From NCBI GenBank assembly GCA_027491785.1, contig JAOZGJ010000026.1, positions 1 through 53,527 on the forward strand: a stretch of 53,527 nucleotides of DNA. The letters are read 5' to 3'. Below, one piece after another: positions 2,306 to 7,535 of this stretch (position 1 is its first letter; every line of letters begins with the position of its first letter). The position numbers and the translations under genes are program-made. Under the pieces are notes generated by a model that saw only the letters and a program-made list of their open reading frames with translations, had not been told where the DNA came from and did no database searches. Source of the stretch: Thermoproteota archaeon (GTDB lineage Archaea > Korarchaeota > Korarchaeia > Korarchaeales > Korarchaeaceae).

Positions 2306-3745
2306 ATGGCACAGCAGGTAAAGATCCTGAAGAAGTTGTTAGTAAAGGGGTTTAACGTCTCTCCAGAGGCTCTAGAAATTCTGAGCAGTTTAGATGAGGG
2401 AAGATTAGATCATGTATTTGAGCTGATCTCAAAGGTGGATAAGGCAGTCATTGAACCTCAAGACCTGCTCCCCTTATTAAAGAAGGAGACAAGACCACAG
2501 ATCGAAAGGAAGCCATATGAGATCCCAACCAGAGTGGACGATATAGTCGTTTTAAAGGCACCTAGGGAACTGGGTGTGAAGGGGACGGTTGATGAGTTCA
2601 TAAACATAATCAGGGATAGGTTCGAGTTCCTTAAATCCATCCTGATTAGGAAGAGTAGCGTAGATCCTATACCTATAGCCGATCTAAAGGCGTCCACTAG
2701 GAGAAATGGAGATAACATCTTGATAATTGGCATGGTGATGGAGAAGAGGGTGTTCAGGGATTTCTCAATTAGAATGTCGCTAGACGATGAAACCGGGTCT
2801 ATACCCGTAATATTCAAGAAAGGTAGTAGATATTGGGATAGAGCTGATAAGGTACCAATAGACAGCGTGCTTGCAGTAAAAGGGACCTTTATAAATGGTA
2901 GGATATACGCTGAGAGTTTTAGGGTACCTGATCTTGATGGGAATCTGGTGAAGCCTGGATCCGCTGAGGGAAAAGCTGTACTGATCAGTGATACCCATAT
3001 GGGAAGTAGGTATTTCAACGAAAAATCCTTTAACATGTTTATAAAATGGTTAAACAGCGATTTAGCTTCTGATGTTAGCTACCTAATAATATGTGGAGAT
3101 CTAGTCGATGGAGTTGGTGTTTACCCTAATCAGGAGGATGAGCTGAGAATAGCTGATGTATATAAGCAGTTCAATCTCGCTGCTTCTTTCTTAGAGCGTA
3201 TACCCAAGGACATCAAAATCCTTTATATACCTGGGAACCACGAACCAGTTCGACAAGCCGAACCTCAGCCGGTCATACCGAGCGAGTACCTAGATGAACT
3301 ATTAGAGGTAAGGCCTGACCTAGTTTCTCTACCTAATCCATCAATGATCGGGATAGGTGATGTCAAGATACTCTTGTACCACGGGAGGAGTTTAAACGCA
3401 ATCTTCAAGCATATTCCGGGACTCCAGCCAATAAGACCGGAGACTGTAGTCGAAGCAATGATTTGGATGCTCAGGTTAAGGCATTTAGCACCTATTTATG
3501 GGGAACATCCGCTATCTCCAGAGGAGAAGGATTGGCTTCTCATAGACGACATACCTCACATACTTCATACAGGCCATATACACGTCTATGGTGTGGGAAA
3601 GTATAAGGGAGTCAATCTAGTGAATTCAGGGACGTTTGAGAATGAAACCCCCTATATAAAGAGTTTGGGAATAGAAGTAACTGTTGGAAAAGTCCCTGTC
3701 GTTAATTTAAAAAATCTAGAGATAGAGATAAAGAACTTCGCTTAA
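2306..3745 (+). CDS. polB: DNA polymerase D small subunit DP1 (3'-5' exonuclease)
   Basis: Proofreading subunit of the archaeal replicative family D polymerase; the large subunit DP2 is not in this window. Of 479 residues, the N-terminal 90 form a helical DP2-independent region, about 110-220 an OB-fold (DNILIIGMVMEKRVF, IPVIFKKGSRYW), and 225-475 a calcineurin-like phosphoesterase. Metal motifs are intact: SDTHMGS, CGDLVDG, PGNHEP and HTGHIHVYG. An intact DTH motif indicates an active exonuclease, unlike the degenerate eukaryotic homologues. It converges on orc1/cdc6 with one base between the stops, next to a candidate origin. PolD excludes classical Crenarchaeota as the source. Confidence 0.97.
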   Translation: MAQQVKILKKLLVKGFNVSPEALEILSSLDEGRLDHVFELISKVDKAVIEPQDLLPLLKKETRPQIERKPYEIPTRVDDIVVLKAPRELGVKGTVDEFINIIRDRFEFLKSILIRKSSVDPIPIADLKASTRRNGDNILIIGMVMEKRVFRDFSIRMSLDDETGSIPVIFKKGSRYWDRADKVPIDSVLAVKGTFINGRIYAESFRVPDLDGNLVKPGSAEGKAVLISDTHMGSRYFNEKSFNMFIKWLNSDLASDVSYLIICGDLVDGVGVYPNQEDELRIADVYKQFNLAASFLERIPKDIKILYIPGNHEPVRQAEPQPVIPSEYLDELLEVRPDLVSLPNPSMIGIGDVKILLYHGRSLNAIFKHIPGLQPIRPETVVEAMIWMLRLRHLAPIYGEHPLSPEEKDWLLIDDIPHILHTGHIHVYGVGKYKGVNLVNSGTFENETPYIKSLGIEVTVGKVPVVNLKNLEIEIKNFA

Positions 3746-3746
3746 C

Positions 3747-4931
3747 TTAACTTATACCCATCTGAGCCAGTAAAGATTTCATCTGCCTTATAGGAAGGGC
3801 TGTTCTCTCCACGATTTTGGTATTACCTCTAGCTCCTCCATACTCCATCTTTATTTCTATCAGTCCTTGGGACTCAAGCTCTCTTAAAATACTACTGACT
3901 CTCCTCATAGTGAGAGGTTTAACGCCATAAGAGGAGGCTCTTCTCTTGTATGTATTATAGATTGTTCCCGTTCCAGGTCTTATGCCGGGTATCTCTAATA
4001 CATCAGTAATCGCTGCGAGAATAAGCCTGTGATGTAGAGGTAGAGTTCTTATCGTTATAGAGACCTCTTCCTCATTAACAGTATCTATCGCTCTCTCAGC
4101 ATGACTTACCCTGAGTTTATCGGCTCTCTCACTTTCAGCTAGCTCGGCAGCCATCCTAAGAATATCTATTGCTCTTCTAGCGTCTCCAGATTCTTGAGAT
4201 ACCTTAGCAGCAATGTACTGCAGGGCTTCATCTTCCCACGTACCGACCTTGAGTCCCAAGTCTGCTCTCTGCCTGAGTATTTGATAGAGTTGAGGTTGAT
4301 TGTATGGAGGGAATTGGAGCCTGTTAGGTTCAAAGCTACTTCTTTCTCTGGGATCAAGCCTCTCTAAGAAATCCATCGTGTTACTGATAACCACCAAGCT
4401 TATGCTCAGTTCTTCAGGTAAATCGTAGTTAAGCCTAGTAAGGGTATAAAGAAGCCGGCCTCCATCCCTTTTAACTAAAAGATCAACCTCATCTAGTATT
4501 ATCACAAGCCTTAAGTGAGATGATGTATAAGCTTCAACGAATTTATCCCATAAAACATCGAAAGGATAACCTGATGGAGGAACTAGGACTTGCATAGCTC
4601 TGTTAAGCTGGTATAGGACTCTGTAGGCTGTAGTTGCCTGACTACAGTTGACATAGGCAAATTTAGCTCTTAGATTGGGATATTCATTCTTGTATTTCTT
4701 TATTACATGCTTTACTACTGCAGTCTTGCCAGTACCTGGTTTACCTATGAAGGCCGTATCGCTAGGAGGCTGATCTGATAGGAGGTCTGAGAGTATTCTA
4801 GAAAATTGAAATATTTGTTCTTCTCTACCTGGAAGATTATCTGGTATATAGGAATCACGGAGAACCCGTTTATCTTTAATTATGGAATATGAGATATAAG
4901 AAGTGTTAATAAACGTTTCATCAAGCGACAT
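3747..4931 (-). CDS. cdc6: Orc1/Cdc6 origin-binding initiator
   Basis: AAA+ protein that binds origin repeats and loads MCM. The 394-residue product has Walker A GKPGTGKTAVV (about 62-72), Walker B LVIILDEVD (about 141-149), sensor 1 VVISNTMD, sensor 2 SGDARRAIDILR (about 253-264) and a C-terminal winged helix from about 300. The ATG is preceded by GGAGGG six bases upstream and a TTTAAA box at 4978-4983. Repeated boxes in the upstream region (5024-5199) look like its own binding sites, the usual arrangement of initiator gene beside origin. Confidence 0.97.
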   Translation of the reverse strand: MSLDETFINTSYISYSIIKDKRVLRDSYIPDNLPGREEQIFQFSRILSDLLSDQPPSDTAFIGKPGTGKTAVVKHVIKKYKNEYPNLRAKFAYVNCSQATTAYRVLYQLNRAMQVLVPPSGYPFDVLWDKFVEAYTSSHLRLVIILDEVDLLVKRDGGRLLYTLTRLNYDLPEELSISLVVISNTMDFLERLDPRERSSFEPNRLQFPPYNQPQLYQILRQRADLGLKVGTWEDEALQYIAAKVSQESGDARRAIDILRMAAELAESERADKLRVSHAERAIDTVNEEEVSITIRTLPLHHRLILAAITDVLEIPGIRPGTGTIYNTYKRRASSYGVKPLTMRRVSSILRELESQGLIEIKMEYGGARGNTKIVERTALPIRQMKSLLAQMGIS

Positions 4932-5024
4932 GAGTTTCCCTCCGCTCGGACCTGAATATGGTGTGGAGCATCTGGGATTTAAACCTATTGTTCATTTAAG
5001 AGAGAAGTCTTCTAGTAATAATGT

Positions 5025-5038
5025 GATATGATGGAGTT
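5025..5038 (-). repeat. ORB-like box, inverted copy
   Basis: On the minus strand it reads AACTCCATCATATC, matching 12 of 13 core positions of the two direct copies. The bases TGATATGAT (5024-5032) also form a perfect 9-bp inverted repeat with ATCATATCA (5046-5054). Confidence 0.65.
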
Positions 5039-5074
5039 AATATAAATCATATCATAATAGTATGTGAGTAATTT

Positions 5075-5091
5075 CCACTCCATCATCTCCG
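5075..5091 (+). repeat. ORB-like box, direct copy 1
   Basis: CCACTCCATCATCTCCG, preceded by TT. It is identical over 17 bp to the copy 41 bp downstream, close to four helical turns, so both would face the same side of the helix. Confidence 0.75.
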
Positions 5092-5115
5092 TTATGGAGA
5101 GACCCTCCTTATTAT

Positions 5116-5132
5116 CCACTCCATCATCTCCG
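5116..5132 (+). repeat. ORB-like box, direct copy 2
   Basis: CCACTCCATCATCTCCG, identical to copy 1. It is preceded by TAT rather than TTT. Confidence 0.75.
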
Positions 5133-5160
5133 AAATTAGGAGCATTGAATAGAAACACAA

Positions 5161-5199
5161 CTCCTTCCACTCCATTCATCATAGATGGAATGGAAGGAG
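5161..5199. repeat. long imperfect palindrome at ecfT 3' end
   Basis: CTCCTTCCACTCCAT on the left matches the complement of ATGGAATGGAAGGAG on the right at 14 of 15 positions. It includes the ecfT stop codon and a degenerate TTCCACTCCAT box, so it may be both a transcription stop hairpin for ecfT and an extra initiator site. Confidence 0.6.
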
Positions 5200-5943
5200 C
5201 TGAAATGGCGCTTGGAGTGAGATGAGTATACCGATTATTATAATAACTATCGAATAGAGGACTACGATAACATCCTGCCAGCTATACTCATAAATCGCAT
5301 AGCTAGTTCTTTTCCCCAAAGCCCCAAAAGCCTTAGTTTCCAGAGCTTCTGCTAATTGATGTCCTCTTCTAATAGCTATTATTATCATAGGTATCAATAT
5401 GGGTATCATCTTCCTTATTCTTTCAAAGAACCCTCCCCTCTCAACCTCATAGCCCCTACTAGCTTGAGAGGTTACTATCATCACGACATCATCAGCCAAT
5501 ACAGGTATGAATCTGAGGGCTATTATGAAGGAGAATGTTATTTGTAGGGGAACTCTTAGCTTTGTAAGTAAATCCCCAATCTCAGCTGGACTTGTACCAG
5601 CCATGAATATAGCAGAAGCTATTATCATACTTATTAATCTCAGGACCATTGCTAGGCTGAAATAAAGGCTTCTTGTAGTTATGTAATTCAATATGATTAA
5701 AAGTATGATAAATATCAAGGAAGCTTTCAAGGATCTCTTTATTCTATTCTCCGACTTAGATAATAAAATTAAAGGAATTTGCGATACTAATGAAAATATC
5801 TGAATAAGTAATGAGGGGCTAATTAAAGGGAGCGCCACAAAGACTGCAAACATTAGGAACTTAGTCAGTGGGTTAAGACGTGAATAAGGTGTTTCACCAA
5901 CCTGAACTCTGAAGATATCTATCATGGCTAAAGGATCTATCAT
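5179..5943 (-). CDS. ecfT: ECF transporter transmembrane component (EcfT/CbiQ type)
   Basis: Membrane coupling subunit of an energy-coupling factor importer for vitamins or metal ions. The 254-residue protein has about six hydrophobic segments (for example FLMFAVFVALPLI, LIFIILLIILNYI, VIVVLYSIVIIIIGILISL). It has the two cytoplasmic coupling-helix signatures in degenerate form: ASRGYEVERGG (about 162-172) and ALETKAFGALG (about 198-208). It starts directly after the stop of the first ATPase gene, so the three genes form one operon. No substrate-binding S component is encoded nearby; S proteins from elsewhere probably plug into this module. Confidence 0.88.
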   Translation of the reverse strand: MIDPLAMIDIFRVQVGETPYSRLNPLTKFLMFAVFVALPLISPSLLIQIFSLVSQIPLILLSKSENRIKRSLKASLIFIILLIILNYITTRSLYFSLAMVLRLISMIIASAIFMAGTSPAEIGDLLTKLRVPLQITFSFIIALRFIPVLADDVVMIVTSQASRGYEVERGGFFERIRKMIPILIPMIIIAIRRGHQLAEALETKAFGALGKRTSYAIYEYSWQDVIVVLYSIVIIIIGILISLQAPFQLLPFHL

Positions 5944-6711
5944 TTAATCACCTATCAGGGACTTGATGATATACTTATAGGGTGGTATCAAGCCATTTGT
6001 AGCGAGCCCTCTTATATCTGAGAAAACATCATTAGGTCTTCCTCTGTTTATTATAGATCCCCGCTTTAAGACCAAGAGGATATCTGGATTCAGCTCTTCT
6101 AACCACTCCAAATCATGAGTAACTATAATGACGCCCCTTCCCTCTTCCCTAATCCCCCTAAATATTTGGATTAGGGATTCCTTAGAGAGGCTATCCTGTC
6201 CTATTGTTGGCTCATCAACAGCTAGAAATCCAGTCTTCATGGCTAAAATGCAAGCTATAGATAGCCTCTTCATCTCTCCTCCACTTAATGACCAAGGGCT
6301 CCTATTTCTCATCTCCCATAATCCTACCTCCTCTAAGGCCTGTCTTACTAATTCTCTTGTTTCATCTGAGTTTATTCCTAAAGATTTGGGGCCAAACGAT
6401 ACCTCTTCATACACGGTATCTGAGAAGAACATATGCTCAGGGTTCTGGAAAACCAAACCTACTTTCCTAGCGAGTTGCGCCACGCTCGCTTCTCTAGTGT
6501 CTATCCCATCCACGAGGACCCTTCCCTTCATTTCTCCTCTGTAGAAGTGAGGTATGAGCCCGTTCAGCAACCTAAGCAAAGTCGACTTACCAGAACCATT
6601 AGGCCCTATTACCCCATAGATCTTCTTCCCCTCAAACTCGATTGTTATATCCCTAATAGCTGATGCGCTTGTTCCCTCATATCTGAAGCTTACTTCCTTT
6701 ATCTCTATCAT
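5944..6711 (-). CDS. ecfA: ECF transporter ATPase component 1
   Basis: One of the two nucleotide-binding subunits driving the ECF importer. It has Walker A GPNGSGKSTLL (about 35-45), Q loop FQNPEHMFF (about 88-96), ABC signature SLSGGEMKR (about 142-150), Walker B FLAVDEPT and H-loop IIVTHD (195-200). Its ATG overlaps the TGA of the upstream ATPase gene (ATGA), implying translational coupling. Residues about 39-91 are identical to the paired ATPase and the DNA differs at one base in 161 there, while the rest is ordinary paralogue-level divergence. Confidence 0.93.
   Translation of the reverse strand: MIEIKEVSFRYEGTSASAIRDITIEFEGKKIYGVIGPNGSGKSTLLRLLNGLIPHFYRGEMKGRVLVDGIDTREASVAQLARKVGLVFQNPEHMFFSDTVYEEVSFGPKSLGINSDETRELVRQALEEVGLWEMRNRSPWSLSGGEMKRLSIACILAMKTGFLAVDEPTIGQDSLSKESLIQIFRGIREEGRGVIIVTHDLEWLEELNPDILLVLKRGSIINRGRPNDVFSDIRGLATNGLIPPYKYIIKSLIGD
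6437..6597. repeat. 161-bp tract shared with second ECF ATPase gene, copy A
   Basis: Bases 6437-6597 match 7252-7412 at 160 of 161 positions (G at 6484, A at 7299). Identity stops abruptly at both ends, pointing to recent gene conversion rather than constraint, since third codon positions are also identical. Confidence 0.95.
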
Positions 6712-7535
6712 CTAATGTTCCTCCTCATAGATATTAGGAGCTCTCCAACAGTCAAGGGTTTATCGTCTACTCCATAGCTTTTGGCTAATTTGACAACGGT
6801 AGGTGGTCTGACCCCATAAACGGATATGTCTTTCATATAAAGGAGATCCCTAGGATTTCCTTCCCTCACTATCTGCCCATTAGATATCACTATTATCCTA
6901 TTAGCCCTATGAGAAAACAGATCAAGTCTATGTTCAGCAACTACTATTGCAATTCCCTCTCTATTTAAATTTCCGAGGACCTTTACTATCCTAGCGGAGC
7001 TGAAGGGATCTAACTCGCTAGTAGGTTCGTCTAGGACTATAACGAACGGTTTCATGGCAAGTACTGAGGCTATGGCTACTAATTGCTTCTCTCCTCCGCT
7101 CAATTCGTAAGTTGATTTCTTTCTCAAATATTCTATTCCCAATTTTTCTAATACCCAATCTATCCTTTCCCTCATCTCTTCTCTAGATAGCTCTAAATTC
7201 TCTAATCCGAAAGCTATCTCCCTATCTACCCTGAGAGTCACTATCTGATTATCAGGGTTCTGGAAAACCAAACCTACTTTCCTAGCGAGTTGCGCCACAC
7301 TCGCTTCTCTAGTGTCTATCCCATCCACGAGGACCCTTCCCTTCATTTCTCCTCTGTAGAAGTGAGGTATGAGCCCGTTCAGCAACCTAAGCAAAGTCGA
7401 CTTACCAGAACCGCTTAGACCCGTTATCAGGAGAAAGTCGCCTCTATTAATCTGTAGGTTTATCCCCAGAAGAGCTGGCCTTTCACTGCCCTCGTACTTG
7501 AAAGATACATTATCTATTTCTATCACTGGAGGCAC
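6708..7535 (-). CDS. ecfA: ECF transporter ATPase component 2
   Basis: Partner ATPase of the ECF core, 275 residues. Walker A GLSGSGKSTLL (about 38-48), Q loop FQNPDNQIV (about 91-99), ABC signature ELSGGEKQL (about 144-152), Walker B FVIVLDEPTSELDP and H-loop VVAEHRLD are all intact. The QNPDNQ and ELSGGEKQ motifs are typical of EcfA1/CbiO. The start is GTG at 7533-7535. A TATA-like ATTATAAT centred 25.5 bp upstream supports this start and suggests a leaderless message. First gene of the three-gene ECF operon. Confidence 0.93.
   Translation of the reverse strand: MPPVIEIDNVSFKYEGSERPALLGINLQINRGDFLLITGLSGSGKSTLLRLLNGLIPHFYRGEMKGRVLVDGIDTREASVAQLARKVGLVFQNPDNQIVTLRVDREIAFGLENLELSREEMRERIDWVLEKLGIEYLRKKSTYELSGGEKQLVAIASVLAMKPFVIVLDEPTSELDPFSSARIVKVLGNLNREGIAIVVAEHRLDLFSHRANRIIVISNGQIVREGNPRDLLYMKDISVYGVRPPTVVKLAKSYGVDDKPLTVGELLISMRRNIR
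7252..7412. repeat. 161-bp tract shared with first ECF ATPase gene, copy B
   Basis: Partner of 6437-6597, offset 815 bp, same orientation, one mismatch at 7299. It encodes the block from Walker A (SGKST) to the Q loop (FQNP). Confidence 0.95.

Follow-up and report, generated by a model that had tools for sequence, protein, structure and literature searches.

A candidate replication origin with lineage-specific initiator boxes beside orc1/cdc6 in a korarchaeal genus

Introduction

In the solved Orc1-ORB complexes, one Orc1 monomer occupies each inverted-repeat box and contacts it asymmetrically (PMC6742236, in excerpt), which makes the role of the mirror half of the ORB puzzling. The ORB is contacted by four arginines of the Orc1 winged helix (excerpts of PMC9738581). 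The common ORB of Ori-Finder 2 is TCCA[CG]T[TG]GAAA[TC][GA]AAGGGGT (PMC4164010, in excerpt), and boxes are known to vary between origin families in haloarchaea (PMC3528665, likewise in excerpt). Literature searches naming the Korarchaeota returned, among the matches listed, no paper describing a korarchaeal origin or its boxes, and a search for Korarchaeum cryptofilum together with DoriC matched no papers. In the excerpts of PMC5333045, PMC3984812, PMC12999951 and PMC5850607, Korarchaeota served merely as a group name; the stem of the name was absent from the main text of PMC4010727, PMC4164010, PMC12141716 and PMC4588119. A prior prediction of the place of the origin considered here is quite possible, and the novelty may lie in its box grammar and the wing change of its initiator.

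The window analysed here is a stretch of 53,527 nucleotides that forms contig C75 of the draft genome of a heat-loving archaeon, apparently a korarchaeon (1,786,789 bp, 114 contigs, 95.47% complete, 6.96% contamination). A sequence-only reading had proposed a replication origin upstream of its orc1/cdc6 gene. This interpretation was supported by relatives, through the plan of the boxes, their confinement and the strand composition of two genomes.

Results

Two identical 17-bp boxes spaced 41 bp apart had been reported in the sequence-only reading. They were found as CCACTCCATCATCTCCG at 5075-5091 and 5116-5132, both on the plus strand and 41 bp from start to start. Their placement upstream of orc1/cdc6 and 1.3 kb from the DNA polymerase D gene was also correct. 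With up to three mismatches allowed, these were the only two matches in the window, against 0.20 expected, and two matches were reached in 1 of 100 shuffles. The two were also the sole exact copies in the whole draft genome, where the 10 other matches each carried two or three mismatches and the reversed-pattern control gave 16. A degenerate version of the box, allowing at most one mismatch, matched 19 times in the draft genome and 27 times as reversed control, so single weak sites carry no meaning. The features of the locus are listed in Table 1.

Table 1. Features in and around the box cluster, in window coordinates.
Feature	Position	Strand	Evidence and remarks
DNA polymerase D small subunit (DP1) gene, convergent with cdc6	2306-3745	+	NF003118, 492.1 bits (cut-off 445); PF04042
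orc1/cdc6 initiator gene, 394 aa, Orc1-1 type	3747-4931	-	TIGR02928, 323.8 bits
TTCAGGTC (minus strand), conserved, close to where cdc6 transcription presumably starts	4949-4956	-	GA[CT][CT]TGAA in 14/14 genus genomes
TTTAAA, probable cdc6 TATA box	4978-4983	-	present in 13/14, at 92-95 bp from the box A start; absent in G002
AT-rich stretch left of box A, candidate unwinding element	5010-5069		77% A+T
Inverted copy of the sequence-only reading, core GATGGAGT at 5030-5037	5024-5042	-	15/19 consensus matches; unconserved
Box A, 19-mer TTTCCACTCCATCATCTCC	5072-5090	+	28.7 bits in leave-out PWM scan; same position in 14/14; overlaps the box at 5075-5091
Box B, TATCCACTCCATCATCTCC	5113-5131	+	22.7 bits; A-B spacing 38-42 bp in 14/14; overlaps the box at 5116-5132
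Weak third direct box (D-like), ACACAACTCCTTCCACTCC	5155-5173	+	14.6 bits; weak counterpart by eye in the alignment columns of several relatives
CbiQ/EcfT-type transporter gene, 3' end overlapping box E	5179-5943	-	PF02361, 76.1 bits
Box E, inverted, TTTCAGCTCCTTCCATTCC (minus strand)	5187-5205	-	25.7 bits; B-E spacing 69-75 bp in 14/14

A total of 61 genomes were searched. The orthologue was present in 14 of 16 members of the genus (G000-G015); in G005 (63% complete) and G007 (78% complete) only the orc paralogue was found, and both were left out (n = 14). The upstream alignment showed one plan in all 14 genomes: box A on the plus strand, box B on the same strand 38-42 bp further on and box E on the minus strand 69-75 bp past B. 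Weaker boxes C (minus strand) and D (plus strand) were seen by eye between B and E in several of them and were excluded from the motif. Box E falls inside ecfT/cbiQ, at the 3' end of the coding sequence. It had been overlooked in the sequence-only reading, along with the weak direct box at 5155-5173; the feature drawn there ended at 5199, splitting box E. The same reading had named an inverted copy facing the direct boxes across a 35-bp AT-rich core. The copy exists, with 12 of 13 matches between its minus-strand sequence ACTCCATCATATC and ACTCCATCATCTC, but it occurred at the same place in just 2 of the 14 genomes, G000 and G003 (the latter with one change), and the facing arrangement was limited to these two. 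The conserved inverted partner, box E, stands on the opposite side of boxes A and B. In G009, an unrelated GGAGTG adjoined box A.

The stretch left of box A contained 67-77% A+T in all 14 genomes. The segment spanning A through E had 47-63%, and the first 60 bp to the right of E had 43-72%. In the window, 5041-5072 reached 81%. On the far side of the AT-rich stretch, no full box was conserved across the 14 genus genomes (full box 2/14, half-box-like element 14/14). Box A and the GA[CT][CT]TGAA element were separated by 122-126 bp in 13 genomes and by 136 bp in G002. The element is possibly an inverted half-box, or only an initiator-like transcription start. A C-rich stretch, GAGACCCTCC, lies directly left of box B in the window. 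Relatives showed GAGAG- and GGAGTGT-type elements next to boxes B and E, at places corresponding to window positions 5092-5112 and to the sequence right of 5205; these are possibly a G-string or the site of a second protein.

The conservation upstream of cdc6 foreseen in the sequence-only reading extended beyond the genus. The best box score was unreached in 150 dinucleotide-model resamples for each of the three genus genomes tested (G000, G002, G010). The family consensus was loosened after the family sequences had been seen; with it, a box above chance was found upstream of cdc6 in six of eight family genomes. In five of these (G016, G020, G019, G022, G023) the best score was reached in 0 of 150 resamples, and in G018 in about 1%. 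The best box was not above chance in G017 and G021. In the family genome G019, all three boxes of the plan were retained, with offsets of 250, 290 and 369. In eight more distant archaea, the best P was 0.053, belonging to a 16/19 korarchaeal-type match in G042. The korarchaeal box was not found in the class- and phylum-level relatives G025, G026 and G027; the G024 match started at contig base 34 and so was without an upstream region. G026, of the same phylum and outside the family, showed by eye a perfect dyad, GTTCCAGTGGAAC, which resembles the canonical ORB core, far upstream of cdc6 (L198, G026:C9:323500-324300). Two tRNA-like stretches separated it from cdc6. In G055, a control outside the phylum, TCCA[GC]TGGAAAT was found upstream of cdc6.

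Confinement of the cluster was assessed by motif scans in which the target and its nearest relatives had been removed from training. These leave-out scans covered four sequences: the whole of G010, a complete one-contig relative of the same genus (1,590,757 bp, 49.0% GC), contig G012:C1, 280 kb of G001:C4 and the window. The origin cluster ranked first in all four. Summed bits at the origin and at the next cluster were 79.1 vs 51.2 in G010, 71.7 vs 37.8 in G012:C1, 88.0 vs 42.7 in G001:C4 and 91.7 vs 16.9 in the window. In G010, 33 matches exceeded 17 bits, with 3 at the origin, 28 within ORFs elsewhere and 2 as single sites outside ORFs. Two of the 28 shared one ORF, 450 bp apart, and the runner-up cluster near 899,900 lay across the beginning of a small ORF at 899,922. 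A scatter of boxes through the genome was thus seen neither in the window's own draft genome nor in the scans of complete G010 and of parts of G012 and G001. A regulon search with the boxes gave nothing convincing.

Strand composition was measured as gene-strand-corrected cumulative GC skew at four-fold degenerate sites; it was computed together with raw skew, after the raw curve was already known. A skew change at the locus, which the sequence-only reading had expected of an origin, was seen at the boxes in two long-contig relatives, but the window by itself was uninformative (p 0.43). In G010 (209,339 sites), the minimum was at 1,377,874 and the boxes at about 1,378,749, some 0.9 kb apart. 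The maximum at 586,903 was 49.7% of the chromosome away from the minimum, and the amplitude was reached in 0 of 5000 block permutations. A two-change-point fit gave 1,378 and 586 kb; the bootstrap interval of the former was wide (1,264-1,490 kb, 200 resamples), so the sub-kilobase fit is not to be over-read. In G012:C1 (911,588 bp), the minimum at 298,995 was about 0.6 kb from the boxes at about 298,394 (0/5000 permutations).

Other measures agreed less closely. Split by gene strand, the four-fold minima were at 1,377,874 (plus) and 1,411,384 (minus) in G010 and at 411,288 (plus) and 289,929 (minus) in G012:C1. Non-ORF sites of both had a GC skew of opposite sign to the four-fold sites, with a maximum at 1,331,692 and a minimum at 704,974 in G010. 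AT-skew minima were at 1,303,613 in G010, 75 kb from the boxes, and at 281,548 in G012:C1, 17 kb from them. In G001, for which 280 of the 883 kb of the contig were covered, the GC sign was reversed, with a maximum at 196,867, boxes at 192,660 and p 0.25; its AT-skew minimum was at 188,930 (p 0.015). An opposite skew sign at an origin has been described for Haloferax volcanii ori3 (PMC12999951, in excerpt). Raw GC skew was set aside: it followed gene strand in the window, and its detrended minimum in G010 was at 762 kb, with the other extreme at 1,579 kb. Altogether, the skew evidence gives good but not conclusive support to an origin at the boxes.

The order DP1-cdc6-boxes-ecfT was kept in all 14 genus genomes, although one locus (L021) covers only the end of DP1. 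Among the eight family genomes, DP1 was convergent in five, co-directional and farther away in two and not seen in one (L037, at a contig end); ecfT was upstream in six. Two neighbouring genes, which look by eye like ABC/ECF-type ATPases, have in common blocks of 47 and 113 identical bp separated by a single base (6437-6597 and 7252-7412), which suggests a recent gene conversion. A second Orc paralogue, divergent at 26% identity, was located at G000:C80:33430-34488 (L010). No box cluster was seen by eye upstream of this paralogue in G000, G010 and G012. An in-frame TGA of the paralogue, listed for seven genus genomes, was dismissed for G001, where it precedes the real start and is therefore trivial.

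The solved structures nearest to the window Orc1 by sequence and fold were Aeropyrum Orc1 (2v1u, DNA-bound) and Sulfolobus Orc1-1 (2qby_A). Its AlphaFold model had a mean pLDDT of 89.8 and Foldseek TM scores to the query of 0.79 (2v1u) and 0.85 (2qby_A). The helix motif [TS]xRR was common to 22 family orthologues, seven archaea outside the phylum and 2v1u. The wing of the winged helix read YGG[AS]xGNTK in all 22 family orthologues compared. Of the seven archaea outside the phylum, six contained GRYG in the wing and one contained GRHG; the motif of 2v1u is RGRYGKT. G025, of the same class and another family, had neither wing motif and lacked [TS]xRR. In the window Orc1 (P0001), residue 342 begins the helix and residue 364 the wing motif; the model is less certain at the wing (pLDDT 68, residues 361-370). 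Some of the arginines that contact the ORB may be the wing arginines changed here.

Boxes A, B and E of the 14 genomes gave 42 boxes, selected by consensus likeness, which favours invariance; in them T3, C4, T8, T12, C13 and T17 were invariant, A6 was present in 35 and C7 in 31. Self-identity of the box was 0.683 at a shift of 9 bp and at most 0.43 at the other shifts tested (3-13). Palindromic pairing was at most 0.31; for the canonical ORB string it is 0.71. With the 9-bp self-match high and palindromy low, the box TTTC[AC]A[CT]TCC[AT]TC[AC]N[CT]TCC consists of two 9-bp direct units. The first carries TTTCCACT, half of a normal ORB. The box thus keeps the TTTCnACT half of the ORB and carries a 9-bp direct repeat (TCnnCTCC) in place of the mirror half. 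The exact ORB dyad core (TCCA[CG]T[TG]GAAA[TC]) was found neither in the window nor in the 280 kb of G001:C4, and its two matches each in G010 and G012:C1 were not at the origin. Its absence from all four korarchaeal origins scanned bears out the claim that the box is lineage-specific. The best match to the 20-base ORB upstream of cdc6 in the genus was 17/20 (G013), overlapping box B and its run and lacking the TCCA half.

Discussion

The locus is very probably a chromosomal replication origin (oriC) beside its initiator gene. Support comes from the box plan in 14 of 14 genomes, the confinement of the cluster, the identity and order of the genes and the skew turn in two relatives. Weighed against it were the lack of a conserved full box on the far side, the overlap of box E with coding sequence and the skew inconsistencies. 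We infer that the window's own chromosome fires at this locus. Orc1 would bind A, B and E in a set orientation: TTTCnACT would be read by the winged helix, as elsewhere in archaea, and the extra 9-bp direct repeat by the changed wing. Bound Orc1 would deform the region, and the DNA would open in the AT-rich stretch that separates box A from the cdc6 promoter. There, Orc1 would deliver the MCM helicase and two forks would depart. Orc1 may also repress its own promoter, which is located in the same stretch.

The boxes could instead be operators of cdc6 transcription, for autoregulation by Orc1 or another regulator, with no origin at the locus. They sit in the cdc6 promoter region, box A keeping its distance from TTTAAA in 13 of 14 genomes, and an archaeal paralogue, Orc1-2, is a regulator (excerpts of PMC9738581). 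The skew turn and the opposite turn half a chromosome away would remain unexplained by operators, and the complete relative contained no cluster elsewhere comparable to that at the boxes; we consider an operator role without an origin improbable. Operator and origin functions of the boxes can coexist. Very little weight falls on conserved repeats without initiator function, either as a terminator hairpin of the ecfT operon or as chance repeats in a pyrimidine-rich leader. The arms 5158-5175 and 5185-5202 are able to pair (89% complementary) and box E overlaps the ecfT 3' end. Boxes A and B, however, are direct repeats that cannot pair together, the spacing is kept in 14 of 14 genomes and the best box score was unreached in the resamples of the three genus genomes. 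For a hairpin, nothing convincing was found.

A minor or inactive origin is about as improbable as operators alone. The main origin would then lie elsewhere, or replication would be origin-independent, as in Thermococcus kodakarensis (PMC5663688, in excerpt). The wide skew interval and the inconsistent signs among relatives would agree with such a state, but the skew of G010 completes only one period, its two extremes lying half a chromosome from each other, and the second orc paralogue had no box cluster upstream in the three genomes viewed by eye.

Each korarchaeal box might hold a pair of 9-bp half-sites in head-to-tail order, on which two Orc1 protomers would sit next to each other, a suggestion that is tentative and on balance rather unlikely. 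If true, an ordered initiator pair would form on the DNA, instead of the one protomer per dyad of the ORB, and the rewritten wing, YGG[AS]xGNTK for xGRYGxT, would be the matching protein change. A lineage that keeps one ORB half, with the other replaced and the wing rewritten, offers a natural experiment on the role of the mirror half. The locus would also provide a concrete origin for a deep archaeal branch, with coordinates in the complete relative G010.

In its overall layout, the locus resembles oriC1 of Sulfolobus and of haloarchaea: it is upstream of an Orc1-1-type gene, has boxes in both orientations and an AT-rich neighbour, and carries the TTTC(C/A)ACT half of the ORB. The C-rich run left of B and the G-rich run right of E, seen by eye in several relatives, are like the ORB G-string of oriC1-type origins. 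Unlike these origins with their dyad-core ORB, the second half of the box is a 9-bp direct repeat and the AT stretch is without a conserved full box on its far side. Inverted boxes together with an AT-rich stretch also recall the Sulfolobus origin with a ucm/UBP element in its unwinding region (PMC12141716, in excerpt). The haloarchaeal candidates in the excerpts of PMC3528665, unlike the present boxes, were picked for a G-string and inverted ORB repeats. In the same excerpts, haloarchaeal Orc and ORB families are linked, and here too the box sequence tracks the family of the adjacent initiator.
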